Shown piece after piece: positions 1 to 10,735 of a DNA stretch of 43,368 bases (positions within the stretch are counted from its first letter, which is position 1; every line of letters starts with the position of its first letter). Source of the stretch: a bacterium (GTDB lineage Bacteria; Patescibacteriota; Minisyncoccia; Phycocordibacterales; UBA2100); NCBI GenBank assembly GCA_030648265.1, contig JAUSHX010000004.1:1-43368 (forward strand), read 5' to 3'. The notes beneath the pieces are model-generated. The model searched no databases. It was not told where the DNA came from and was given only the letters and a program-made list of their open reading frames with translations. A program made the position numbers and the translations under genes.

Positions 1-99
1 GAAATCTACGAACGCCTGCAATCGCGCATTGCGACGTTCAAGGAATCGCACACGTACGACGACATCGCGCGTGAATTTGTGGCGTTATTGAAAATATGA
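1..99 (+). CDS. C-terminal end of a gene, probably a glycosyltransferase (partial)
   Basis: The frame is open from base 1 and ends with TGA at 97-99, giving the last 32 residues of a protein that begins upstream of the window. The tail is a charged amphipathic helix ending in FVALLKI, as at the C-terminus of many GT4 glycosyltransferases. That assignment rests mainly on the next gene, whose ATG overlaps this stop (ATGA at 96-99). The overlap suggests translational coupling and a shared operon. There is too little sequence for a firm family call. Confidence 0.5.
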   Translation, partial: EIYERLQSRIATFKESHTYDDIAREFVALLKI

Positions 100-1178
100 A
101 GGTTCTGCAAATAGGTTCAGACAGGTCAATATTTGACGAGAAAAGTGCGTCCGCATCACGCATGCGCGCGTACGGGAAACGTTTCGGTGAACTTGAAATC
201 ATCGTTTTTTCCCTTCGCAGACACAAAGTTCGGGAGGCGCGCTTGAGCGAATATGTGCATGCGTATGCGACCAATTCCTTTTTCCGTTTTTTGTATGTAT
301 GGGATGCGGCATGGCTCGCGCTCAAACTACCGAAGCCGGACGTAGTTTCAGTTCAAGACCCATTTGAGGGCGGAATTACTGGCTGGATTATCGCTCGTTT
401 GCGGGGCGCCCGTTTCCATGTGCAAGTGCACACAGATTTTCTGTCACCGGAATTTGCCAGGATTTCATTCCTGAACCGCGTGCGCGTACTCATTGCCGGC
501 TTCGTTTTACGCCGCGCATCCCGCATACGCGTCGTTTCGGAACGCATCAAGGATTCACTAAAAACTAAAAACTATAAACTAAAAACTGAACCAACGGTGC
601 TCCCGATTTTTGTGGACGTAGCAAAATATCGCAACACACAGCTTGAACCCCGACTTGCGGCACGCGAGCATCTGTTCAGAGCGAAACTGCTCGTCGTGTC
701 GCGCCTGGAGCCGGAAAAGAATGTCGGGCTCGCCATTCATGCGTTTGCCAAGGCCGCATTGGAGAATTCCTGCCTCATTATCATCGGCGAGGGAAGCGAG
801 AAAAAATCACTTATGAAAATGGCGGAAGAGCGAGGAGTCGGCAAGTGGGTATTTTTTGAGGGGCAAGTGGACCCGGCGCAATACTACAAGCTTGCGGATT
901 TGGTTCTTGCTACCTCGCTTTATGAAGGATACGGCATGGTCATTGTTGAAGCGCTCGCATCCGGCACGCCCGTTATTTCCACCGATGTCGGCATCGCACG
1001 CGAAGCAGGCGCGATTATTGCGGAAGAAGATGATTTTGCAAAAGCGATTACCGCGTGGTTTGAGAATGGTCCCAGAGAAGGGAAACTGCAGAACTATCCG
1101 TACAAAACTTTTGAAGAATATGTTGAAGCGTATTGCGCGGACATAGAATCCTCAAAAAATAGCATTCAGATAGGTTAG
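96..1178 (+). CDS. Glycosyltransferase family 4 (GT-B fold)
   Basis: A 360-residue retaining glycosyltransferase that would move a sugar from a nucleotide donor onto a growing glycan at the inner face of the membrane. The C-terminal Rossmann half is clear: a strand and loop with LLVVSRLEPEKN, then LIIIGEGSE, then the donor-site E-x7-E region EGYGMVIVEALASGTPVIS near residues 277-295. Length is normal for GT4. The start is fixed by the ATGA overlap with the preceding gene. The linker near residues 155-165 is encoded by an AT-rich ACTAAAA-type microsatellite (557-590), which is odd for a coding region. Donor and acceptor cannot be read from the sequence. Confidence 0.9.
   Translation: MKVLQIGSDRSIFDEKSASASRMRAYGKRFGELEIIVFSLRRHKVREARLSEYVHAYATNSFFRFLYVWDAAWLALKLPKPDVVSVQDPFEGGITGWIIARLRGARFHVQVHTDFLSPEFARISFLNRVRVLIAGFVLRRASRIRVVSERIKDSLKTKNYKLKTEPTVLPIFVDVAKYRNTQLEPRLAAREHLFRAKLLVVSRLEPEKNVGLAIHAFAKAALENSCLIIIGEGSEKKSLMKMAEERGVGKWVFFEGQVDPAQYYKLADLVLATSLYEGYGMVIVEALASGTPVISTDVGIAREAGAIIAEEDDFAKAITAWFENGPREGKLQNYPYKTFEEYVEAYCADIESSKNSIQIG
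557..590 (+). repeat. In-frame ACTAAAA-type microsatellite inside the GT4 gene
   Basis: Four imperfect copies of an ACTAAAA/ACTATAA unit run through codons for KTKNYKLKTEPT. The tract is far more AT-rich than the surrounding gene and stays in frame. It lies in the loop joining the two Rossmann halves, where extra residues are tolerated. Confidence 0.7.
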
Positions 1179-1203
1179 ATATTTATAACGGCTAGCGAGG
1201 ATC

Positions 1204-1229
1204 CGAAATGAAAGCTTGCTTTCATTTCG
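1204..1229 (+). repeat. Hairpin 1 with G(CUUG)C tetraloop
   Basis: An 11-bp perfect stem (CGAAATGAAAG, loop CTTG, then the complementary arm). As RNA it closes with the G(CUUG)C tetraloop, a known extra-stable loop. It lies after the GT4 stop in a gene-free stretch (1179-1454) that contains three such hairpins. No U-tract follows, so it is not a standard terminator. Confidence 0.75.
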
Positions 1230-1230
1230 T

Positions 1231-1278
1231 CCGAGCGAAGACGGTATACAGGTTTAAAACCCCGCGGCTTGCCGCGGG
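1231..1278 (+). repeat. Dispersed repeat family C, copy 1, ending in hairpin 2
   Basis: Begins CCGAGCGAAGAC and runs through GGTTTAAAACCCCGCGGCT. A second copy occurs at 32641-32699, so this is a dispersed repeat. Its end (1261-1278) forms a 7-bp stem CCCGCGG, loop CTTG, CCGCGGG, again a G(CUUG)C loop. The bases just upstream (from about 1192, TATAACGGCTAGC) weakly resemble one arm of the family B palindrome, and copy 2 directly follows a B palindrome, so B and C may form one composite repeat. Confidence 0.65.
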
Positions 1279-1310
1279 AATTGCGCGAGCAAAGCGAGCT
1301 CCATTTAATA

Positions 1311-1330
1311 CCGCGGGGCTTGCCCCGTGG
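1311..1330 (+). repeat. Hairpin 3 with G(CUUG)C tetraloop
   Basis: CCGCGGGG, loop CTTG, CCCCGTGG: an 8-bp stem with one G-U pair and the same G(CUUG)C loop as hairpins 1 and 2. There is no poly-U directly after it. It may help end transcription of the convergent gene pair around it or may be part of a repeat cluster. Confidence 0.65.
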
Positions 1331-1390
1331 AACCTTTATTAAAGAGACTAGACATCTGCCGATTAAATCATTTGTTGAACTGTTTAATCA

Positions 1391-1430
1391 ATATTCCATT
1401 TCTTACGCCATGGCGTAAGAAATGGAATAT
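1391..1430. repeat. Palindrome family A, copy A1 (perfect, 40 bp)
   Basis: A perfect 40-bp palindrome with arm ATATTCCATTTCTTACGCCA and an NcoI-like CCATGG centre, with no loop. It lies 24 bp beyond the stop codon of the Cas2/PaaX-like gene. Related copies are at 2037-2072 and 5232-5271. Confidence 0.95.
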
Positions 1431-1454
1431 TACGAAATTCAAAACCAGAACAAA

Positions 1455-2036
1455 TTATTGCAGGCCAAAGTGCCGCTTAATCCATGCATCGTTCTCAATT
1501 GAGTCAACAACTGCGTATAGCAACTCTTTTCCAATTCTCATATCCGATTTAACGAGAGTAATCAGTTCTTCGCAATCGTACGGAAATAACCACACGCTGT
1601 TCTGCAGGCGCAAGAACCCGCACTCGCGCAGGATGTGGCGTACGCTGTCCCGCATAGTCTTGCGCTTTTGCGGAATATCAAACATGACTAGCCGATAACG
1701 CTTGTCCCATCGCTTGCCTCGCATGGCCAGAAGCCGCGCTTTTTGTTGCTCAATGGAAAGGGCGCGCTTGCCGGCATCGGTAATTTCAATCCACTTCTTT
1801 CCGTTCTTTTCAACAAACCGTACATGCCCCTTAATGGCGAGACGCGAAGCGGCGGTGCGAGCCTGAAAAGCGAGCTTGTAGCGCTTTTTCCCCATGATGC
1901 GCGGGAGCGCTTGGAAAATATTTGGCGCAATCATTGTTACGGCAAGAATACCCGCAATTCCGATAGTGGCTAGAACTGCTCCCTGAATATTTCTTCTCTT
2001 GCGTCTTTTCTCCGCAATCCGTTCAACGTTTCCCAT
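1455..2036 (-). CDS. Cas2/PaaX-like protein with N-terminal hydrophobic segment
   Basis: 193 residues. Residues 16-45 form a hydrophobic, probably membrane-spanning segment. About 50-95 looks like a winged helix (ending in EITDAGKRAL), and 110-193 is a Cas2-like ferredoxin-fold domain as in the centre of PaaX regulators, with the landmarks RLVMFDIP, GFLRLQNSVWLFP and CEEL. Such proteins are often annotated Cas2 in CPR genomes, but there is no cas1 or CRISPR array here. The ATG at 2036 is chosen because it directly abuts palindrome A2 and a TAGAAT -10-like box lies 7 nt upstream inside that palindrome. An earlier start would translate the palindrome itself. About 44% of the Cas2-like domain is identical to the protein at 35912-36484. 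Function is unknown; DNA binding to the palindromes is a hypothesis. Confidence 0.75.
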   Translation of the reverse strand: MGNVERIAEKRRKRRNIQGAVLATIGIAGILAVTMIAPNIFQALPRIMGKKRYKLAFQARTAASRLAIKGHVRFVEKNGKKWIEITDAGKRALSIEQQKARLLAMRGKRWDKRYRLVMFDIPQKRKTMRDSVRHILRECGFLRLQNSVWLFPYDCEELITLVKSDMRIGKELLYAVVDSIENDAWIKRHFGLQ

Positions 2037-2072
2037 ATTCCATATTCTACGCCATGGCGTAGAATATGGAAT
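2037..2072. repeat. Palindrome family A, copy A2 (perfect, 36 bp)
   Basis: Perfect 36-bp palindrome with arm ATTCCATATTCTACGCCA. It sits immediately upstream of the minus-strand Cas2/PaaX-like start and between two divergent genes. Both strands contain TAGAAT, a reasonable -10 hexamer, so it may be a two-way promoter or operator. Its right flank TTGTTTT is shared with copy A3. Confidence 0.95.
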
Positions 2073-2176
2073 GTTGTTTTCGCGCCTATGCTGTGCATAA
2101 GTAGAAGACATAAGCAAAAGCACAAAGTAGTTTCGTGGGTTGGGGAAAAGATGCGATTGGTGCGAGAAAGCGATGA

Positions 2177-2182
2177 TACAAT
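2177..2182 (+). promoter_or_regulatory. Extended -10 box for the membrane protein gene at 2190
   Basis: TGA followed by TACAAT, ending 7 nt before the ATG at 2190. The predicted transcript would begin at or next to the start codon, which supports 2190 over the in-frame upstream ATGs at 2088 and 2151. No -35 box is obvious. Confidence 0.5.
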
Positions 2183-2189
2183 CAAGATT

Positions 2190-2804
2190 ATGACCACTAC
2201 GAAAATGCCGGGCGAATCAACTATAAGCAAAGATTGGAAGCCGATATACCGGAGATGGTGGTTTTGGGTTCTCGCCACACCGCTTATTCTTTTTATCGCA
2301 ATCGTCATCTATCGCATTCCTTTTGTGATAGAGAAGGAGAAGACGCAACAGGTGATCGCGCAAATTCATGCGCAAAAGCTGACAATAAACGACGTGAACG
2401 GCGAACATCTTCCGCCACCGCCCGACCCCACGCAAGTGGATGCAACGATTGAAGGAGTGGATGCAAATGGAAACGGCATCCGAGATGATGTTGAGTTAGC
2501 GATTTTCAAAAAGTATCCCAATTCCGCAAAAATCCGCGCGGCGGAGTTGCAGTATGCAAAGGCGTTGCAAAAGGAGTTCACGTCTGTGTTTAATTCGGAG
2601 ACGCTAGTTGCTGTGATTCAAGAGGAAGGTAGAGGTAGTGTTTGCATTCTAAATTCCAAGCGAACTCAAGAAATAGAGGATTTGGTATTTAACACAGATG
2701 CTCGCAAGAAAGCCCAGGAGGATTTGTATAGAAAGTTTATGACATCGTACGCTCTTCCTAATTCGGACTATTGTGACATTGACCCCAAAATACTTGCAAA
2801 TTAA
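2190..2804 (+). CDS. Single-pass membrane protein with an EF-hand-like calcium motif
   Basis: 204 residues. A basic N-terminus precedes one transmembrane helix at about 24-46 (WWFWVLATPLILFIAIVIYR), with the remainder predicted outside. A proline run at 75-80 leads to DANGNGIRDDVE at 91-102, the spacing of a calcium-binding EF-hand or dockerin-type loop. The C-terminal part has two cysteines and no family I recognise. It is followed after 2 nt by the large secreted protein, so the two probably act together at the cell surface. The start was chosen from an extended -10 box; in-frame ATGs at 2088 and 2151 are alternatives. Confidence 0.7.
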   Translation: MTTTKMPGESTISKDWKPIYRRWWFWVLATPLILFIAIVIYRIPFVIEKEKTQQVIAQIHAQKLTINDVNGEHLPPPPDPTQVDATIEGVDANGNGIRDDVELAIFKKYPNSAKIRAAELQYAKALQKEFTSVFNSETLVAVIQEEGRGSVCILNSKRTQEIEDLVFNTDARKKAQEDLYRKFMTSYALPNSDYCDIDPKILAN

Positions 2805-2806
2805 AC

Positions 2807-5170
2807 ATGCGGATTCTCATTACAGTAATAGTGCTTGTACTTTTTCCGGTTGCCACCTTTGCTGCCTCTTGTAGTCCGTCTGGTATGACGGTAGTTTACG
2901 TTAATGGAATTCTTACAACCTACCCTGAAGCAAAAAGAGACTTGGGTGTATTACAAACAGAATACATAGCAAGGACCAGTGATTATTCCACTAATTTCCT
3001 AACTGGCTACAACGAATCTCACATCGCTGGCTTTGGCGATACGCTCCAATCAATCGCGCAGGCATTTGGGACTTCAATCACGGACTTTGACCGAAATACG
3101 ATATTGATGCAAATCCAGCCGCAAGTGTCCACGCGGAAGATTCTTCTTGTCGGGCATTCGCAGGGCACTTTCTATACAAACTCAATGTATAAATATCTTA
3201 CTGATAATGGAGTGCCAAAAGAATCAATCGCCGTATACAACCTTGCGACTCCAGCAGACCACGTGGAAGGTAGCGGCGGTTATCTCACTTCTACAAACGA
3301 CAGGGTAATCAATGGTGTTCGGCCGTTGATGGCTAAGTATGGTGCGCTACCACCGCTCGCCGCGAACATCGCAATCTCTATTCCCGCAGACGAAATAAAT
3401 GACAAAAACGGCGGACATCATTTCGGAAGCAGTTACCTCGCAATGGAACCGGACAGAATCGTTTCCGATATCACGAACGCCCTGGGAAATCTGGAAGCGG
3501 GAGTTTCATCGTCCAGTGACGGATGCTTCACCCCTCCGCCCAAAACTCTCGGATACAAAACACAGGCGGCAGTGTTTGCGATTGCCGACCCGCTTTCGCA
3601 AAAAGCGGTCAATGGAATTGGAGCGACAGGAAACGCAATAGTGGCGGCGGCGCGGAAAGCATCTGCGGCTGCTGCATACGCAATGGCACAAATACGAAAC
3701 ATATTTGCCAGTGCGAGCTCGGCGTCCGGTAGTGTAAGTGCGGCAAGCCAAATTGCCGCGATTTCGGCGGCATCGCTCAAATTGTCTCCGGCAACTAATA
3801 ATACTAATCCTCCGAAAACGACTGTTGCATCTGTGCCCACGCCGCCGCCCGCGCCCGTACAAACCGCAGTAATTCCGCTGAAGGAAACACCTGTTACAGC
3901 ACCTGATTCGCCGCCAGTGCAACCGCATATTCAACCGCCAATTCCCACTCCGCCGGTATTTGGGCCGGAACTGATTAGCGTCGCTCCCGGATTTGGAGGA
4001 GGCGGAGCAGGTGCTCCGGTTCCTAGCCCGGTTGCCGAAGCGCCTGCCCCAGCATATGTTCCCCTCTCCGTTCAAGCGCCCCCAGAAGGGGCGCTTTTTT
4101 CAACATCTTCTGTCACATTCACCGGCACGACCACACCCGGCTATTCGGTAGTTGCTTCGTATGCGAGCATCGCAGTCGCGACTGTTGCCGATACAAACGG
4201 CAACTGGTCTATCGCTCTTACATTACCGGAAGGCGCGACCGCGGTTGGCATCGTTGCCGCCGACAGCGCGGGAAATACATCAGATGCCATTACGCGCACT
4301 GTTACCATTGACACCACTCCGCCAGGCGCACCCTCTCCATCTCTTTCAGAATGCGCGGCATCCCTCTCAACAAGTTTTTGCCTCATCTCAACTACAAGCG
4401 CAACGCTCGCCTGGCCGCCAGTCACAGGCACTGCGTATTATGCGTATTCTATAAACGGGTCAACTTTTGCAACGACGACTGAAACCGGAGTAACGCTTTC
4501 CCTCTCACCAAGCGCATCCACGACCATTTCCGTCGCGGCATACGACGTACTTGGAAATGCCGCGACATCTACTCCCGTAGAAACATATGTGCTGACAAAC
4601 CCGATTATCATCAATGAGGTTGCATGGGCGGGGACAAAAGCAGGCGCTCAAGACAAATGGATAGAATTGAAAAATATCTCACCGTATTACATCGGCAGTC
4701 TATCGCACGTAGCAATCATTTCTGTAGACGGTTCGCCATATCTGCAGCTTTACGGTGATATCCCGCCAGGCGGTTTTTATCTTATTGAAAGTCGTGACGA
4801 ATCTACGAGTGCCGCAGGCAATTTCATAACTCCTCTTGATGCACTTTCGCAGGTAGGAGAGGAATTGAAGCTGAATTGGGGCAGTGGAAATGCGACAACA
4901 ACTCTTGATCGTACGCCTGCTGTTTCCGTATGTGGCGGTTGGTGCCCGGGGATGGACGCAAGTTGGCTAGCAAACTTCCTATCTAATCCAATGACCATGG
5001 AACGCAAGGCCACTGGGTCAGACGGTGCGAATGCCGGGAGTTGGCAATTTGGCGCATCGGGTGTTCCGGAGGCGACAGACAGCGCGGGCAATGTGATATT
5101 GGGGACCCCTCATGCCGAAAACAGTGCCGGCGGAATCTGGCCGCCTCTGCTTTTTGATGGCATGCTTTAA
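2807..5170 (+). CDS. Secreted alpha/beta-hydrolase-like protein with Ig-like and lamin-tail domains
   Basis: 787 residues. A signal peptide (1-20, ending TFAAS) leads into an alpha/beta-hydrolase-like domain with the nucleophile elbow GHSQG (Ser118) and a possible catalytic histidine in GGHHFG. Next come an Ala-rich helix (about 270-330), a Pro/Thr-rich linker (about 335-400), and bacterial Ig-like repeats with DTNGNWS and TVTIDTTPPGAP. From about 598 to 760 lies a lamin-tail domain beginning IIINEVAWAGT and including KWIELKN. Such tails occur on extracellular bacterial proteins. The likely role is a surface esterase or lipase-like enzyme held by adhesive domains; the substrate is unknown. 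An intrinsic-terminator-like hairpin lies inside the coding sequence at 4074-4100, at the junction of linker and Ig-like domain. Confidence 0.75.
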   Translation: MRILITVIVLVLFPVATFAASCSPSGMTVVYVNGILTTYPEAKRDLGVLQTEYIARTSDYSTNFLTGYNESHIAGFGDTLQSIAQAFGTSITDFDRNTILMQIQPQVSTRKILLVGHSQGTFYTNSMYKYLTDNGVPKESIAVYNLATPADHVEGSGGYLTSTNDRVINGVRPLMAKYGALPPLAANIAISIPADEINDKNGGHHFGSSYLAMEPDRIVSDITNALGNLEAGVSSSSDGCFTPPPKTLGYKTQAAVFAIADPLSQKAVNGIGATGNAIVAAARKASAAAAYAMAQIRNIFASASSASGSVSAASQIAAISAASLKLSPATNNTNPPKTTVASVPTPPPAPVQTAVIPLKETPVTAPDSPPVQPHIQPPIPTPPVFGPELISVAPGFGGGGAGAPVPSPVAEAPAPAYVPLSVQAPPEGALFSTSSVTFTGTTTPGYSVVASYASIAVATVADTNGNWSIALTLPEGATAVGIVAADSAGNTSDAITRTVTIDTTPPGAPSPSLSECAASLSTSFCLISTTSATLAWPPVTGTAYYAYSINGSTFATTTETGVTLSLSPSASTTISVAAYDVLGNAATSTPVETYVLTNPIIINEVAWAGTKAGAQDKWIELKNISPYYIGSLSHVAIISVDGSPYLQLYGDIPPGGFYLIESRDESTSAAGNFITPLDALSQVGEELKLNWGSGNATTTLDRTPAVSVCGGWCPGMDASWLANFLSNPMTMERKATGSDGANAGSWQFGASGVPEATDSAGNVILGTPHAENSAGGIWPPLLFDGML
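4074..4100 (+). terminator. Intrinsic-terminator-like hairpin inside the reading frame
   Basis: Stem AAGCGCCCC, loop CAGAA, GGGGCGCTT, then a run ending in six T residues. By shape this is a textbook Rho-independent terminator, yet it is fully translated (QAPPEGALFS) in the middle of the large secreted protein. It could attenuate transcription when translation lags or mark an old gene fusion point. Confidence 0.6.
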
Positions 5171-5231
5171 TTGAACATCAGCGCGGAATATATTTCTTTG
5201 CGAAGGAGTAGGTCTTGAAGTGGCATTCATC

Positions 5232-5271
5232 ATATTCCATATCCTACGCCATGGCGTAGGATATGGAATAT
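5232..5271. repeat. Palindrome family A, solo copy A3 (perfect, 40 bp)
   Basis: Perfect 40-bp palindrome with arm ATATTCCATATCCTACGCCA, standing alone between two plus-strand genes in the 5171-5397 spacer. It differs from A1 and A2 at a few arm positions, each change mirrored in the other arm. The rest of the spacer shows nothing recognisable. Confidence 0.95.
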
Positions 5272-5397
5272 TGTTTTGTATCAATTTTGTGAACAGACTG
5301 ATGCAGGGATTGATACACAGATAAATAAATGCGCACTACTGAGAGGGTGCAGGCGAATCTTGCGCGTTCGGGAAAAAACGGCAATAATGCGCGGATT

Positions 5398-6297
5398 ATG
5401 ACAGACAAGAACCGCAAGAAACCGCTTATTGGCTTTGTCGGACAGGGATTTGTCGGCAAGAATTATGCCGACGATATGGAGCGTCGCGGCTATACGACAA
5501 TCCGCTATGCATTAGAAGAACCGTATCGGGGCAACAAGGAGAAGCTCAAAGAAGCAGAAATAGTTTTTGTATGCGTTCCTACGCCGACAAATCCTAAAGG
5601 GTTTGATTCAAGTATCGTTGAGGCGGGCGTTGGGCTCGTGGGCAAGGGCAAAATTGCCGTCATCAAGTCCACATTGCTTCCCGGAACAACGGAATGCGTA
5701 CAGAAAAAGTATTCTGATCGTATCGTGCTGTGCAGTCCTGAGTTCTTAAGTGTCGCGACTGCCGCATGGGATGCCGCACATCCTTTTTCAAACATTATCG
5801 GGATGCCAGTAGACACTCTCAAGCATCGCGCCGCGGCAAAAAAAGTGCACGCTGTCCTCCCGCGAGTTCCGTTCGCTGTAACTACAAAAAGCGTTGAAGC
5901 TGAAATTATAAAATACGCGCACAACGGAAGCGGGTACATGCAAGTGATACTTTTCAATATTATGTATGACCTCGCGCAAAAGATGGGCGCGAAGTGGGAT
6001 GTCATACAAAAGGCAATTGAAGCCGACCCAATGATTTCAAACCGTTACGCAAAGCCGTTGCATAAGAGCGGACGCGGCGCGGGCGGATTCTGCTTCATTA
6101 AAGACTTTGCCGCACTCCGTGCCCTGTACGAGAAACATCTTCCGCATGACGCAGAGGGAAGTGCCGCACTTCGAGCAATTGAGCGCAAGAATATCGCCCT
6201 GCTTCTGCAGACGAATAAAGATATTGAATTACTGCAAGGTGTCTATGGCCACGCTATCGTCGGGCATCGCGCGCGGAAAAGCAAAGCGCGCCGCTAA
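5398..6297 (+). CDS. UDP-glucose/GDP-mannose dehydrogenase family protein lacking the C-terminal domain
   Basis: 299 residues. The N-terminal NAD site is GFVGQGFVG (12-20). The central domain is followed by GGFCFIKD, where Cys232 and the Lys-Asp pair match the catalytic GGSCFPKD of UDP-sugar 6-dehydrogenases. These enzymes oxidise C6 of a UDP-hexose to the uronic acid in two NAD-dependent steps. Family members are usually 400-450 residues; the C-terminal UDP-binding domain is absent and the protein ends in a short basic tail. It may supply a UDP-HexNAcA for the Wbp-like genes at 15541-18864. The start at 5398 gives a normal family N-terminus; an in-frame ATG at 5329 would add 23 residues of poor similarity. 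Confidence 0.75.
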   Translation: MTDKNRKKPLIGFVGQGFVGKNYADDMERRGYTTIRYALEEPYRGNKEKLKEAEIVFVCVPTPTNPKGFDSSIVEAGVGLVGKGKIAVIKSTLLPGTTECVQKKYSDRIVLCSPEFLSVATAAWDAAHPFSNIIGMPVDTLKHRAAAKKVHAVLPRVPFAVTTKSVEAEIIKYAHNGSGYMQVILFNIMYDLAQKMGAKWDVIQKAIEADPMISNRYAKPLHKSGRGAGGFCFIKDFAALRALYEKHLPHDAEGSAALRAIERKNIALLLQTNKDIELLQGVYGHAIVGHRARKSKARR

Positions 6298-6330
6298 CCA
6301 TGCGGTTCTTGGGGCTCGTATTACTTCCAT

Positions 6331-6372
6331 GAAGCTCAAAGGAAATAATTATGCGTTCATTGATGCTTAATT
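6331..6372 (+). pseudogene. Possible remnant of an NYN-domain protein start
   Basis: A 13-codon frame MKLKGNNYAFIDA followed by TAA. The string NNYAFID closely resembles the start of NYN/LabA-type nuclease domains, where YAFIDxxN carries the first catalytic aspartate. Nothing downstream continues the domain. It is best read as a truncated leftover, with low confidence because it is so short. Confidence 0.3.
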
Positions 6373-6410
6373 CATGAACAATTTGCAAAAAATGTTGGAG
6401 TACAAAAAGA

Positions 6411-6450
6411 AAAGCACCGCATGAGGACGGAACCTCACGAAGTGCCTTTC
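6411..6450 (+). ncRNA. Candidate structured RNA, copy 1 (ACGGAA-loop hairpin)
   Basis: Inner stem TGAGG/CCTCA (6422-6426 with 6433-6437) closes the loop ACGGAA. An outer stem AAAG plus CAC pairs with GTG and CTTT around small internal loops. Copy 2 at 6514-6552 keeps the same loop but has stem TGGGG/CCCCA, a covarying base pair. This supports a conserved RNA structure. I cannot match it to a named family. Confidence 0.5.
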
Positions 6451-6513
6451 CCTAGAAATACCCTATAATCATAGGCACCAACATGTCAACTGTCAAGCGC
6501 GCGTTCAAACAAA

Positions 6514-6552
6514 AAAGGACACCATGGGGACGGAACCCCAAGGAGGACTTTC
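6514..6552 (+). ncRNA. Candidate structured RNA, copy 2, leading into a strong Shine-Dalgarno
   Basis: Inner stem TGGGG (6525-6529) with CCCCA (6536-6540), loop ACGGAA (6530-6535). AAAG at 6514 can pair with CTTT at 6548-6551. The Shine-Dalgarno AAGGAGG (6540-6546) begins at the last base of the inner stem and lies within the outer helix, so folding could control ribosome access. This suggests a cis-regulatory leader for the following peptide and glycosyltransferase. Confidence 0.5.
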
Positions 6553-6588
6553 ATGCTGATGAACATACTACATAGGTACGAGCATTAA
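6553..6588 (+). CDS. Short leader peptide with the strongest Shine-Dalgarno in the window
   Basis: Eleven codons (MLMNILHRYEH) then TAA, preceded by AAGGAGG with a 6-nt spacer. The stop lies 7 nt before the ATG of the GT4 gene at 6596, close enough for translational coupling. Most genes here lack a Shine-Dalgarno, so its presence ahead of so short a frame is notable. It may be a genuine leader peptide or the 5' end of a lost gene whose leader now drives the GT4 gene. Confidence 0.45.
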   Translation: MLMNILHRYEH

Positions 6589-6595
6589 TGTCGAC

Positions 6596-7657
6596 ATGAA
6601 ACTCTTGATTTGTACACAAGCCATAGATTTGGACGATCCGATCTTAGGATTCTTTTGCCGTTGGGTGGAGGAATTTTCCAAACACTGCGAATCGGTGCAT
6701 GTCATTTGCTTGAAAGAGGGAAAGCATTCTTTGCCAGCGAATATTCGCGTCCATTCATTAGGCAAACCATCCGTCGCTAAAGCTATGGAGGGCGAGGGAA
6801 CCCGGTTTCTATCGCGTATCAAATATGTATGGAACTTCTATAAATATATTTGGACGCTTCGGAACGAATACGATGCAGTGTTCGTGCACATGAATCAGGA
6901 ATACGTTCTTCTTGGCGGCTTGCTCTGGAAATTCCTCGGCAAAAGAATCTTTTTCTGGCGCAATCACTATGCGGGTTCACTATGGACAGATATCGCGTCT
7001 GCGCTTTCAACCAAGGTCTTTTGCACGTCAAAATTCTCCTATACGGCGAAATTTAAAAAGACGGTCATCATGCCGGTGGGTGTAGATACGAGCACGTTCA
7101 AACCGCTCTCGGGAGAGCGCGACCCCGCAGGAATCCTTTTCTTGGCGCGGATGGCACCTTCCAAGAAAGCTCATATTCTTGTGGATGCCTTGAAACCTCT
7201 CCATGAGCGGGGGACCAATTTCCGGGCATCTTTTTACGGCTCGGCGCTGCCGAGGGATTCTGCGTACTACGCGGAGCTTCAAGAGAAGGTGCGCGTTGCG
7301 GGGCTTTCGGGCGTTGTGCGTTTTCATGCCGGTGTTCCCAATACGGAAACTCCCAAAATCTACAACGAGCACGCCATCTTCGTGAACTGCTCTTCTTCGG
7401 GTATGTACGACAAGACGATATTTGAAGCCGCCGCGTGCGGTACGCTCGTTCTAGCGGCAAGCCGGGATTTTGCCACGCTCGTACCCCTCCGTTTTTCGTA
7501 TGTCGCGGATGATGTCAAAGATATCGCGGCCAAATTGGAAGCACTGCTCTCTCTTTCCGAAAACGAGAGAAAAGAGGCATCAATTGAACTTCTTGAACTC
7601 GCGGATAAAAACAGCCTCGCTACGCTTGGGGCTCGGCTTGTACAAGAAACCGGATGA
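6596..7657 (+). CDS. Glycosyltransferase family 4
   Basis: 353 residues of GT-B fold. The N-terminal half binds the acceptor. The C-terminal half has ILFLARMAPSKKAHILVDAL, then the SSSGMYDKTIFEAAACGTLVL region, where the two glutamates of the usual E-x7-E are partly replaced (one conserved in FEAAA). A retaining sugar transferase in glycan assembly is expected. The gene follows the RNA-like repeats and leader peptide at 6411-6588 and is convergent with the GT4 gene at 7661, with 3 nt between stops. Specificity is not predictable. Confidence 0.85.
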   Translation: MKLLICTQAIDLDDPILGFFCRWVEEFSKHCESVHVICLKEGKHSLPANIRVHSLGKPSVAKAMEGEGTRFLSRIKYVWNFYKYIWTLRNEYDAVFVHMNQEYVLLGGLLWKFLGKRIFFWRNHYAGSLWTDIASALSTKVFCTSKFSYTAKFKKTVIMPVGVDTSTFKPLSGERDPAGILFLARMAPSKKAHILVDALKPLHERGTNFRASFYGSALPRDSAYYAELQEKVRVAGLSGVVRFHAGVPNTETPKIYNEHAIFVNCSSSGMYDKTIFEAAACGTLVLAASRDFATLVPLRFSYVADDVKDIAAKLEALLSLSENERKEASIELLELADKNSLATLGARLVQETG

Positions 7658-7660
7658 TGC

Positions 7661-8773
7661 TTATGCGGAGTTTTCTATGTGATGCAATATTGTTCTAACG
7701 CGCGCATCCCATGTGTATTTTTTGACGGTCTCGCGAGCGAACAGAGCATGTGTCCGCGCTTCGTCGGGGTGCGATAGCGCATATTCTATCTTCTGCGCGA
7801 GGTCTGTGGCGTTGTCCGGCTCAAACAAAAATGCGCTCTCTGTGGTCAGAATTTCGCGAATACTCGGCAGGTCGGATGCAACAATAGGCACGCCGGAGGC
7901 CATGTATTGGAAGAGTTTGAGCGGGGAAGTGTAATGCGAGGAAATCTTGGGCTTTGCGCTGCTTGGGAGCACCAGGACATCAGCCGACATGAGAAACGAT
8001 GGGATTTGCTTGCGCGGCTGATACCCGATTACGTGCACGTGTGAGTTCGCGTATGTTTTTTGAAAGTCGGCAAGCTCCCGGTCAACACCCCCCATGAGTA
8101 CAACTTCTACGTCGGAAGGTAAATGGCGGGCGGCCTCCGCGAGTGTTTCGGCCCCTTTCCAGCCATAAAAATGACCGGTATAGAGAGCTATCTTTTTTTG
8201 CGGATCAACATGATGGACACGCCACACCTCGCGCGATGGAGTGATTCTGAATTCAGAAAGGTCTACCGCGTCCGGTGCGACCACTATTTTTTCTGCTGGT
8301 ACACCGTTTTTAATGAGTGATTGTTTCAGTCCGTCGCTAATCACAACAAGCCGGCGAGCCCGCGCGAGCGCGCGAAGGAATAAAAATGTCCGTTCCGGAA
8401 TACTATGTATCTCAAGTACGATATTGCTTGAGCGCGCGAATAAAGCGATCTGGTAGTCGCGCGTATAGACAAGCGTTTCGCCAAACCGCTTGCCCAAGAC
8501 AGATAGCAAAAATGTAAGTTGGTCAAGCGCAAACGCCGCGCGCGCGTTCTCGTGTTTACCGAGGAAGTCGGTTGCCCAAAGTTTGCGCAACGTGAAATTG
8601 CGTTTGATACCGTAATACTCAAACGGGTCAGCTTTGATTCCGTGATGGCGCGTAGGGACAACCAGCTCCACAGCGGCTTTTTGTGCGGAAAACTCTTCGC
8701 ACATTTTCATAATTGCATAGCCATGCGCGCGATCGGTCGGAAGGCGTACGAGAGTTATATAGGAAAGTTTCAT
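7661..8773 (-). CDS. Glycosyltransferase family 4
   Basis: 370 residues. The N-terminus MKLSYITLVRLPTDRAHGYA is typical of GT4 enzymes with an acceptor-binding loop. The donor half has IALYTGHFYGWKGAETLAEA, then SPLKLFQYMASGVPIVASDLPS. The start at 8773 is preferred over an upstream in-frame ATG at 8827 because a TATAGT box (8792-8797 on the minus strand) would start the transcript near 8785, inside the longer frame. The gene is divergent from rmlB, and the 13-bp inverted repeat GATTGTCACAATC lies between them at 8819-8831. Confidence 0.85.
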   Translation of the reverse strand: MKLSYITLVRLPTDRAHGYAIMKMCEEFSAQKAAVELVVPTRHHGIKADPFEYYGIKRNFTLRKLWATDFLGKHENARAAFALDQLTFLLSVLGKRFGETLVYTRDYQIALFARSSNIVLEIHSIPERTFLFLRALARARRLVVISDGLKQSLIKNGVPAEKIVVAPDAVDLSEFRITPSREVWRVHHVDPQKKIALYTGHFYGWKGAETLAEAARHLPSDVEVVLMGGVDRELADFQKTYANSHVHVIGYQPRKQIPSFLMSADVLVLPSSAKPKISSHYTSPLKLFQYMASGVPIVASDLPSIREILTTESAFLFEPDNATDLAQKIEYALSHPDEARTHALFARETVKKYTWDARVRTILHHIENSA

Positions 8774-8818
8774 ACCAATCATGTATTTGAGACTATAGCA
8801 TTCTGGCGTCGTTTTGAA

Positions 8819-8831
8819 GATTGTCACAATC
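8819..8831. promoter_or_regulatory. Inverted repeat between divergent GT4 and rmlB genes
   Basis: GATTGT-C-ACAATC, a perfect 6-1-6 inverted repeat in the shared promoter region. It overlaps the expected upstream promoter region of rmlB. A regulator binding here could control both directions; it could also be chance. Confidence 0.3.
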
Positions 8832-8847
8832 GTGCTAAAAGATGTGT

Positions 8848-9855
8848 ATGGAAGCCAGATTTCTGGCAGGTAAAAAAATCCTCGTATGCGGCGGGTGCGG
8901 GTTTATGGGGTCCGATTTTATACTCACGCTGCTTGAGCGCGTGAAAGATGCGGAGGTCGTGAACGTCGACGCGCTCACGTACGCGGCCGACCCGAATAAT
9001 CTCAAGGATGCAGATACTCGGCGGTATCGCTTCGTGAAAGGGGACATAGCCGATGGCATGCTCATGCAGAAGCTCATGAAGGATGCCGACGCGGTCGTTA
9101 ATTTTGCGGCTGAAACACATGTGGACAGATCAATTCACACGCCGGCGGAAGCGTTCATACGGACGAACATACTCGGCGTTCATGCGCTTCTGGAAGCTCT
9201 CCGCGCCTCACCCCACATAGAAAGAATGATACACATCTCCACCGACGAAGTGTGGGGCGATCTCCCGCTCGATTCAAAGGAGAAATTCACGGAAGACTCT
9301 CCCTTCCGCCCCAATTCACCGTATGCGGCTTCAAAAGCGGGAGGCGACCTACTCATCCGCTCATACGTGCGCACGCATCACGTGCCGGTCATCGTTACGC
9401 ACTCGGTAAATAACTTCGGTCCGCGACAGTACCCCGAGAAGCTCATCCCGTTTTTCACGATGCGCGCGCTTCAGGGTAAGACCGTGCCGCTATACGGCAC
9501 CGGTAAGAATATGCGTGACTGGTTGCATGTCGACGATCATTCCGAAGCAGTCCTTACTGTGATGGAGAAGGGAGAACTTGGCATGGTATACAATATTTCA
9601 CAGCAGAAAGAGTACTCGAACATTTTTATTGCAAAAAATATTTTACGCATCCTGAAAAAGCCGGAGTCGCTCATAGAGTATGTGAAAGACAGGCCGGGCC
9701 ACGACCTCAAATATGCCGTTGACTCTTCAAAACTGCGCGCGCTCGGATGGAAGCCTCGATACTCGCTAGAGGACAAATTGCCCGAGGTTGTCGAATGGTA
9801 CAAAAAGAACGTGCGCGAGGGCTCTACTGCCGCCAACGCCCATATAGGGCTATAA
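8848..9855 (+). CDS. rmlB: dTDP-glucose 4,6-dehydratase
   Basis: 335 residues. Converts dTDP-glucose to dTDP-4-keto-6-deoxyglucose in the cytoplasm, the branch point to rhamnose and other deoxy-sugars. Seen: NAD-binding GGCGFMGS near 15-22, STDEVWGDL carrying the catalytic Asp-Glu pair, and the YAASK Tyr-Lys pair, followed by the [14 protein letters not shown] substrate loop. Length is normal. ATG at 8848 is preferred because TGC-TAAAAG at 8833-8841 would begin the transcript there; an in-frame ATG at 8842 is an alternative. rmlA follows 7 nt later. No rmlD is visible in the window; an RmlC-like cupin is at 41643. Confidence 0.93.
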
Positions 9856-9856
9856 T
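9851..9856 (+). promoter_or_regulatory. -10 box TATAAT for leaderless rmlA
   Basis: A perfect TATAAT, overlapping the rmlB stop codon, with exactly 6 nt before the rmlA ATG. A transcript starting 7 nt after the box would begin at that ATG. No convincing -35 box. Confidence 0.5.
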
Positions 9857-9862
9857 CAAAAT

Positions 9863-10735
9863 ATGAAAGGCATTATTTTGGCAGGAGGCTCTGGAACACG
9901 GCTTTACCCTCTGACAATGGGGGTCAGCAAGCAATTGATGCCGATTTACGACAAGCCGATGATTTATTATCCGCTTTCAACCCTGATGCTCGCCGGCATT
10001 CGGGACATTCTAATTATTACGACTCCGGAGGATGCAAGCAGTTTCAAGCGGCTTCTCGGCGACGGCACACAGCTCGGTTGTACATTTGCCTATGCCGCGC
10101 AAGAAAAGCCCAACGGCCTTGCGCAGGCATTCGTCATCGGTAAGGAATTCATCGGGAGCGACAGTGTCGCCCTAGTGCTCGGAGACAACTTGTTTTACGG
10201 GTCGGGGATGCGCAAGATGCTGGAGACGTGCGCGCATCCAAGGGGCGGAATCATTTTCGCGCATCACGTGGCCGACCCTGCCCGCTATGGCGTCGTAGAA
10301 TTCAACAAGAAGGGCGAAGCAATTTCAATTGAGGAGAAACCCGCAGAACCAAAGTCATCGTATGCCATACCGGGGTTGTATTTCTATGACAATAGCGTCG
10401 TAAAAATGGCAAAAGAAGTAAAGCCAAGCGCGCGCGGAGAATATGAGATTACAGATATTAACAAGCGTTATCTCAACATGGGTAAGTTGCGCGTACTTGA
10501 AATGGACCGCGGGACGGCATGGCTCGATACAGGCACATTCACTGCGCTCATGGAAGCGGGACAATTTGTGCATGTGATTGAAAAACGCCAAGGGTTCCGT
10601 ATCGGCTGTGTTGAGGAGATGGCCTATCGGATGGGCTTCATTGACAAGAAGCAACTCAAGAAACTCGCCGAGCCGCTTCTTAAAAGCGGCTACGGGGGTT
10701 ATTTGATGAGCATCTCGGATGAGACGTATCTATGA
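9863..10735 (+). CDS. rmlA: Glucose-1-phosphate thymidylyltransferase
   Basis: 290 residues. Joins dTTP and glucose-1-phosphate to dTDP-glucose, the step before RmlB. The pyrophosphorylase signature [19 protein letters not shown] is at 6-24, followed by [18 protein letters not shown] and LGDNLFYG with the metal-binding Asp. The sequence is full length. The ATGA overlap with the next GT4 gene makes it the head of the operon 9863-13953. A TATAAT box 6 nt before the ATG suggests its own leaderless transcript. Confidence 0.95.

Follow-up and report, generated by a model that had tools for sequence, protein, structure and literature searches.

The window analysed here is a stretch of 43,368 nucleotides from a bacterium of the Patescibacteriota (GenBank assembly GCA_030648265.1, contig JAUSHX010000004.1, positions 1 to 43,368). 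Upstream of a glycosyltransferase gene at 6596, it contains two tandem hairpin units and the remains of a gene for an NYN-family ribonuclease (RNase). Comparative sequence analysis gives good support to the view that the units are a minus-strand small-RNA gene, present twice in tandem, from a previously uncatalogued family. The features of the locus, with scores from a minus-strand covariance model (R2), are as follows.

6329 to 6370, plus strand: N-terminal remnant of the NYN gene, MKLKGNNYAFIDA followed by a stop, recognised by eye against the intact gene at locus L005 (weak hidden Markov model [HMM] match, E 0.019).
6371 to 6424, plus strand: C-terminal remnant of the NYN gene, FMNNLQKMLEYKKKSTA, in the same frame as the N-terminal remnant, with its stop codon TGA (6422-6424) inside hairpin 1.
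6408 to 6450: hairpin 1 of the first-pass annotation, a DNA inverted repeat in which the terminator of the small RNA and the 3' end of the NYN gene coincide.
6408 to 6461, minus strand: small RNA gene 1, ~54 nt, 5' end near 6461 (R2 64.8 bits, E 5.5e-12).
6461 to 6451 and 6450 to 6408, minus strand: parts of small RNA 1, namely the leader and the terminator-like hairpin with loop UUCCGU.
6468 to 6496, minus strand: promoter of small RNA 1, near-consensus and sigma-70-like, with -35 box TTGACA (6496-6491), a 17-nt spacer and -10 box TATGAT (6473-6468); score 11/12.
6511 to 6553: hairpin 2 of the first-pass annotation, recognised by its fold, the 43-nt repeat and the R2 model.
6511 to 6564, minus strand: small RNA gene 2, a tandem copy (R2 41.1 bits, E 8.7e-7).
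6565 to 6594, minus strand: promoter-like site of small RNA 2, with TCGACA (6594-6589), an 18-nt spacer and TAGTAT (6570-6565); score 9/12.

A first-pass annotation had reported two units with an identical loop and a compensated inner stem, and both observations hold. The sequence GGACGGAACC lies at 6425-6434 and 6528-6537 (two occurrences in the window versus 0.04 expected from shuffling) in a 43-nt direct repeat with 77% identity between units and an offset of 103 nt, and the inner stem changes from TGAGG/CCTCA to TGGGG/CCCCA. A third GGACGGAACC in the genome (L001) falls inside an apparent dnaK gene read antisense, named by reading its translation, and was dismissed as chance. Both strands fold: unit 1 at -15.4 kcal/mol on the plus strand (z -3.9) versus -27.6 kcal/mol on the minus strand (z -6.2; the stretches folded differ slightly in extent), and unit 2 at -15.6 (z -2.8) and -18.4 kcal/mol (z -4.1), respectively. 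An A-tract and a T-tract flank the hairpin on both sides, and the minus strand is terminator-like. Small RNA 2 is the weaker copy, with three non-standard pairs in its hairpin, and its promoter-like site is weak evidence, as shuffled sequence often scores 9. The tandem spacing of ~104 nt, found in the window, at L005/L037 (one locus) and at L105/L144, corresponds to one promoter plus one RNA. At two further loci (L115, 2991-3084; L143, 1501-1619), tandem hairpins lie 51 and 75 nt apart, with no room for a full promoter and leader; these may be single transcripts carrying two hairpins.

When 52 genomes of the genus were searched with the region, a single clear relative with 82% identity turned up, in genome G008; G047 gave a short match. 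A first covariance model (R1), built from five hairpins, was used to search 379 genomes of the phylum together with 80 loci encoding NYN proteins; almost all of the hairpins it found were located where an NYN gene ends. The training set of R2 includes some loci that the model later recovers; the R1-search loci had been chosen without regard to NYN neighbourhood, while the protein-search loci had been fetched by NYN. The search for homologues in the candidate phyla radiation (CPR) that the first-pass annotation had proposed was productive, with relatives found across the CPR and the stem kept in them. The ~54-nt RNA begins with a ~10-nt leader, continues into a covarying terminator hairpin (loop UUYYGU) and closes with a U-rich end. 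In alignment A4 (61 of 62 non-redundant minus-strand sequences, L115 copy 1 being omitted), 88.9% of cells pair and 15 of the 16 pairs change on both sides. Covariation was observed in 131 cells versus 43 after shuffling, and none of 500 shuffles reached the observed values. Hairpin conservation was counted over 86 of 109 distinct hairpins, those of 43 nt; an upstream hairpin match at L067 (2362) had been excluded as unrelated before the conservation, promoter and wobble counts. In the loop (A4 columns 30-35), two variable positions are nearly always pyrimidines (C/U), and the rest are nearly fixed.

Promoter scores of at least 10/12 were obtained on the minus strand for 78 of 109 hairpins, compared to 1/109 in the plus-strand upstream control and ~3/109 in shuffled sequence, and the -10 box mostly ends 14 to 18 nt before the hairpin. 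Minus-strand wobbles are biased toward G·U (71) over A·C (16), the latter being G·U on the plus strand, and the bias recurs where the arm is noncoding (16 versus 4; 15 loci). Model matches on the minus strand also have the higher scores (for example, 74.8 versus 44.6 bits at L053). Taken together, promoter, covariation, wobble bias and the stronger minus-strand fold place the RNA on the minus strand. Many NYN genes stop ahead of the hairpin, and those that run through it do so in varying frames; protein sequence therefore cannot drive the conservation of the hairpin. A mere bidirectional terminator between convergent transcripts, accompanied by a fortuitous antisense promoter, would account for the A- and T-tracts on both sides and the terminator-like minus strand, but we allow it only a slight chance: terminators do not conserve loop and leader sequence across lineages, they do not track one gene family, and a near-consensus promoter 14 to 18 nt away would not be expected.

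The strand assignment also bears on the first-pass proposal of a riboswitch or leader ahead of the glycosyltransferase. The units do precede the gene at 6596, and folding is seen on the plus strand as well; nevertheless, promoter, wobbles and model scores indicate the other strand, no Rfam family matches, and the linked gene is a convergent upstream NYN gene, so that a glycosyltransferase riboswitch or attenuator is scarcely credible. No glycosyltransferase is common to the neighbourhoods of the 80 NYN loci. The only neighbour family present at more than four of them is DnaK-like (six loci), and the glycosyltransferase in the window therefore appears incidental. The AAGGAGG and short leader peptide described for the plus strand are both present, the latter as an 11-codon open reading frame (ORF), MLMNILHRYEH, at 6553-6588 after the AAGGAGG. 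However, AAGGAGG is part of hairpin 2's own 3' arm, and the peptide was discarded as a candidate since it is not conserved in the G008 sister locus. The first-pass annotation had found no named class to which the units belong; this agrees with Rfam, where neither the window nor the RNA in five homologous loci had a match above the gathering score. Weak Rfam matches (mir-185 and others) fell far under the gathering scores and were rejected. The possibility that the loop pairs with a conserved stretch of 23S rRNA was dropped, as a match of 6 to 7 nt is expected by chance.

In both G008 and G047, an ORF of 167 amino acids (aa) lies upstream, its stop codon overlapping the hairpin, and Pfam assigns this ORF to NYN (PF01936; 61.6 and 44.4 bits versus a gathering score of 24.2). 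Four aspartates (Asp12, Asp87, Asp110 and Asp112) are invariant, both in 39 and in 59 sequences. The AlphaFold model of the ~165-aa protein is globular, with a pLDDT of 91.9, and Foldseek matched it to VPA0982 (PDB 2qip; E 4e-10, TM 0.77 to 0.80), with which the NYN profile aligns, catalytic aspartates included. The NYN start appears weak and mostly leaderless, with a Shine-Dalgarno (SD)-like sequence at only 9 of 79 loci and promoter scores that resemble those of shuffled sequence. No match for the NYN protein was found in PHROGs or NCBIfam, and PADLOC yielded only weak NYN and HEC-09 matches. For P0001, the NYN protein of L005, only distant NYN proteins (<60% identity) were found on plasmids, and no phage match was found. 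The CRISPR-associated NYN protein of Bacteroides fragilis is a sequence-nonspecific, Mn2+-dependent single-stranded RNase whose D13A variant failed to cleave (PMC11346440). It is plausible that a nonspecific RNase such as this would have to be kept in check.

The small RNA is convergent with the NYN gene, which abuts the hairpin or extends into it with its 3' end. With R2, the RNA was detected at the NYN 3' end at 76 of the 80 NYN loci, a proportion biased upward, as these were the best 80 of 123 and the query alignment consisted of two NYN proteins both having the RNA. Of the NYN loci identified by protein alone in the 379 genomes, a subset of 30 was searched for the RNA, and 25 of these carry it at the end of the NYN gene at E ≤ 0.1. 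Starting from the RNA, 38 sites were recovered in the 379 genomes at E ≤ 1e-5, after one opposite-strand duplicate (G181) was dropped from the tally. A convergent NYN gene accompanies 29 of them, 26 at E ≤ 1e-25 and three with a weaker or partial NYN (G293:C21, G254 and G257), and two more sites, in the window and G102, lie beside an N-terminal NYN remnant read by eye with weak HMM support. At the genome level, 46 of the 65 genomes with an RNA match at E ≤ 0.01 have the NYN family. The 379 genomes and 80 loci partly overlap (L053 and L120, for example, lie on contigs of equal length and carry an identical hairpin), and the two counts cannot be treated as independent.

The convergent arrangement raises the possibility of cis-antisense control of a type I-like kind, in which the RNA would base-pair to the NYN mRNA at the 3' end of that message and trigger its decay or block its expression. 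Contact or overlap with the NYN 3' end is seen at most loci, complementarity is perfect by construction, and convergent antisense antitoxins are known in Bacillus. Such control would, however, not require that different CPR lineages, and even other phyla, keep the same loop and stem, or that wobbles be biased to the minus strand, and, where NYN genes stop at or before the hairpin, as many do, the overlap is confined to the 3' untranslated region. Moreover, no significant excess of pairing between the RNA and the NYN 5' region was detected (cognate -18.8 versus -17.4 kcal/mol; p 0.12; 72 loci). We therefore regard cis-antisense control as improbable.

In the window, the C-terminal remnant matches the final 17 residues of the intact P0001 without a difference, and ~137 codons are gone between the two remnants, including three of the four invariant aspartates (Asp87, Asp110 and Asp112). 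Judged from the sequence, most of the nuclease gene is deleted while the RNA genes are kept. The window genome has no other NYN-family member; the best match there (E 3.4e-10) lies in a longer ORF. Internal NYN deletions that keep the start and the RNA were found in the window and at L165, L166, L218 and L223. This pattern bears on whether the NYN protein might instead use or process the small RNA as guide, cofactor or product, the RNA acting in trans via its leader and UUYYGU loop and the nuclease serving as maturation enzyme. Loop and leader are conserved beyond the needs of a plain terminator, and stand-alone RNA copies with strong promoters occur (L123 at 12/12; L126 and L145 at 11/12), some in NYN-less genomes. 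Trimming of crRNA has also been proposed for a CRISPR-associated NYN protein (PMC11346440). Repeated deletion of the nuclease with the RNA kept would be unexpected if the RNA needed the nuclease for maturation, and we consider this explanation unlikely, though deserving of attention. Around the RNA genes, positions 96-10735 of the window hold a polysaccharide-type cluster of glycosyltransferase, UDP-glucose/GDP-mannose dehydrogenase, GDP-mannose dehydratase-like and nucleotidyltransferase genes.

The distribution within the genus is patchy (12 of 52 genomes have a match at E ≤ 0.01, and in 7 the match reaches E < 1e-4), and the NYN tree agrees only loosely with the submitters' labels (30 changes, where the least possible is 19 and the shuffled mean is 36.6). 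The module was also recovered from genomes labelled Nitrospirota (Magnetobacteriaceae), Ignavibacteria/Melioribacteraceae and Cloacimonadota, where misbinned contigs are possible, and one predicted viral contig bears an RNA-NYN pair (L206). L120, with NYN, and L123, without it, have in common only a 100-bp block, the RNA gene, at 93% identity. Second NYN genes do occur next to the first, and at L038, L040 and L043, the second hairpin likewise ends an NYN gene. Downstream of its first NYN ORF, L040 has two more members of the family (4179-5494), making up a tandem module array. At L132 (1449-2389; G252), a pair of small-RNA/NYN units score equally and are separated by 898 bp, as if duplicated in tandem only recently. 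The RNA and NYN genes are best read as a horizontally spread two-gene module. Alternatively, the NYN gene and hairpin might move as a unit, as part of a small mobile element whose ends they mark and of which internally deleted copies such as that in the window would be derivatives resembling miniature inverted-repeat transposable elements. The patchy spread, tandem copies, deletion derivatives retaining both ends, the L120/L123 block in differing surroundings and the copy on a predicted viral contig would all fit; on the other hand, the fold of NYN is that of an RNase, and the bias among wobbles points to selection on RNA rather than on DNA hairpins. We give the mobile-element explanation a small chance, well below that of cis-antisense control.

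Linkage of the RNA gene with NYN is well supported by these comparisons, whereas we infer inhibition. Our favoured reading, tentative and held at somewhat less than an even chance, is that the pair forms a two-gene module in which the small RNA would be a structured, antitoxin-like inhibitor restraining the NYN nuclease. The RNA would be made from a strong promoter and the nuclease from a weak, mostly leaderless start; the nuclease would recognise the RNA via a clade-specific middle stem; tandem RNA copies would raise the RNA dose; and loss of the nuclease with the RNA kept would be a safe route of decay for the module. Restraint is hinted at by the promoter imbalance, by the occurrence of the RNA in tandem, by decay that strikes the nuclease first, and by NYN divergence, which correlates with that of the middle stem (r 0.70, compared to 0.03 to 0.23 for the equally linked leader, loop, inner stem and outer stem; 62 loci).

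Several observations weigh against a dedicated RNA inhibitor of the nuclease. The middle-stem correlation may reflect an intermediate rate of change rather than contact. No NYN was found beside seven of the 38 RNA sites, by a flank search at six (G179, G119:C22, G363, G119:C30, G079 and G227) and by the table of the 379-genome protein search at the seventh (G332:C11:13877). G000, G079, G227 and G363 have the RNA with no NYN at E ≤ 1e-25 and, therefore, the RNA may act alone. Conversely, among 111 genomes with NYN at E ≤ 1e-25, 46 have an RNA match at E ≤ 0.01 and 65 have none. Either lossy search filters or RNA-less NYN subfamilies could account for these 65, which are a real weakness. Even with filters off, eight NYN loci (L044, L103, L109, L112, L183, L184, L194 and L203) lacked a convincing RNA where the NYN gene ends; two of these, L103 and L112, make up a clade on a long branch. 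In the window itself, copy 2 has a weak promoter and mispairs. Furthermore, window and G008 are similarly conserved in the NYN remnant (31/34) and the RNA (39/43), and the decay is therefore too recent to reveal selection on the RNA.

It is possible, though we hold it with more doubt than the inhibitor reading itself, that this is a new class of RNA-controlled RNase widespread in CPR/Patescibacteria, with a PIN-like NYN nuclease checked by a ~54-nt convergent RNA via its clade-specific middle stem. In that case, orphan RNAs such as those in the window would shield cells from incoming modules. A family of NYN nucleases without an assigned role would gain a specific RNA partner, and a terminator-sized minimal RNA can evidently form a separate family. 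Should the RNA prove to be an inhibitor of the nuclease, a further layout would be added to RNA antitoxins; if it is a product or guide, a small-RNA pathway would open in CPR bacteria. We know of no characterised small-RNA system in CPR bacteria, and to our knowledge few small RNAs there have a proposed role. Our literature search, with subscription papers and preprints outside its coverage, turned up no description of a small RNA paired with an NYN gene.

Two known RNA elements resemble the plus strand of the window. Guanidine-II (mini-ykkC) riboswitches comprise tandem hairpins with ACGR loops, and the window likewise has two small hairpins with ACGG in the loop. The resemblance was set aside given the six-nucleotide loop, the minus-strand RNA, the NYN linkage and the lack of an Rfam match. 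CsrA binds hairpins with ANGGA loops, which the plus-strand loop ACGGAA fits, and hairpin 2 contains an SD-like run. This candidate was rejected, as the conservation is on the other strand and the CsrA family (PF02599) was not found in the window genome (G000, 97.66% complete; the family was found in 3 of 14 control genomes). On the protein side, VPA0982 and the B. fragilis CRISPR-associated NYN protein share the NYN fold and aligned catalytic aspartates, whereas the available part of PMC11346440 mentions no dedicated partner small RNA for the latter.

Comparison with toxin-antitoxin systems is closest for types I and III. Type I convergent pairs include txpA/RatA and bsrG/SR4, to which SymE/SymR may be added, and most of their toxins are small hydrophobic peptides. 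The module resembles them in its opposite-strand RNA, strong promoter and overlap with the 3' end of the protein gene. In contrast, its protein is a ~165-aa globular nuclease rather than a small membrane peptide, and its RNA structure and loop are conserved across distant lineages. Type III systems (ToxIN and its kin) pair an RNase of the ToxN fold with a structured small RNA, encoded as a repeat array upstream in the toxin transcript. Here too, an RNase gene is joined to a gene for a small structured RNA, sometimes in tandem, in a patchy, apparently mobile two-gene unit. However, this RNA lies downstream and convergent on the opposite strand, with its own promoter and its own terminator, and the nuclease is NYN/PIN-like, by Pfam and by its fold match to VPA0982, rather than of the ToxN/AbiQ fold. 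An RNA-controlled NYN nuclease of this kind, if borne out, would represent a toxin-antitoxin type with the layout of neither type I nor type III.
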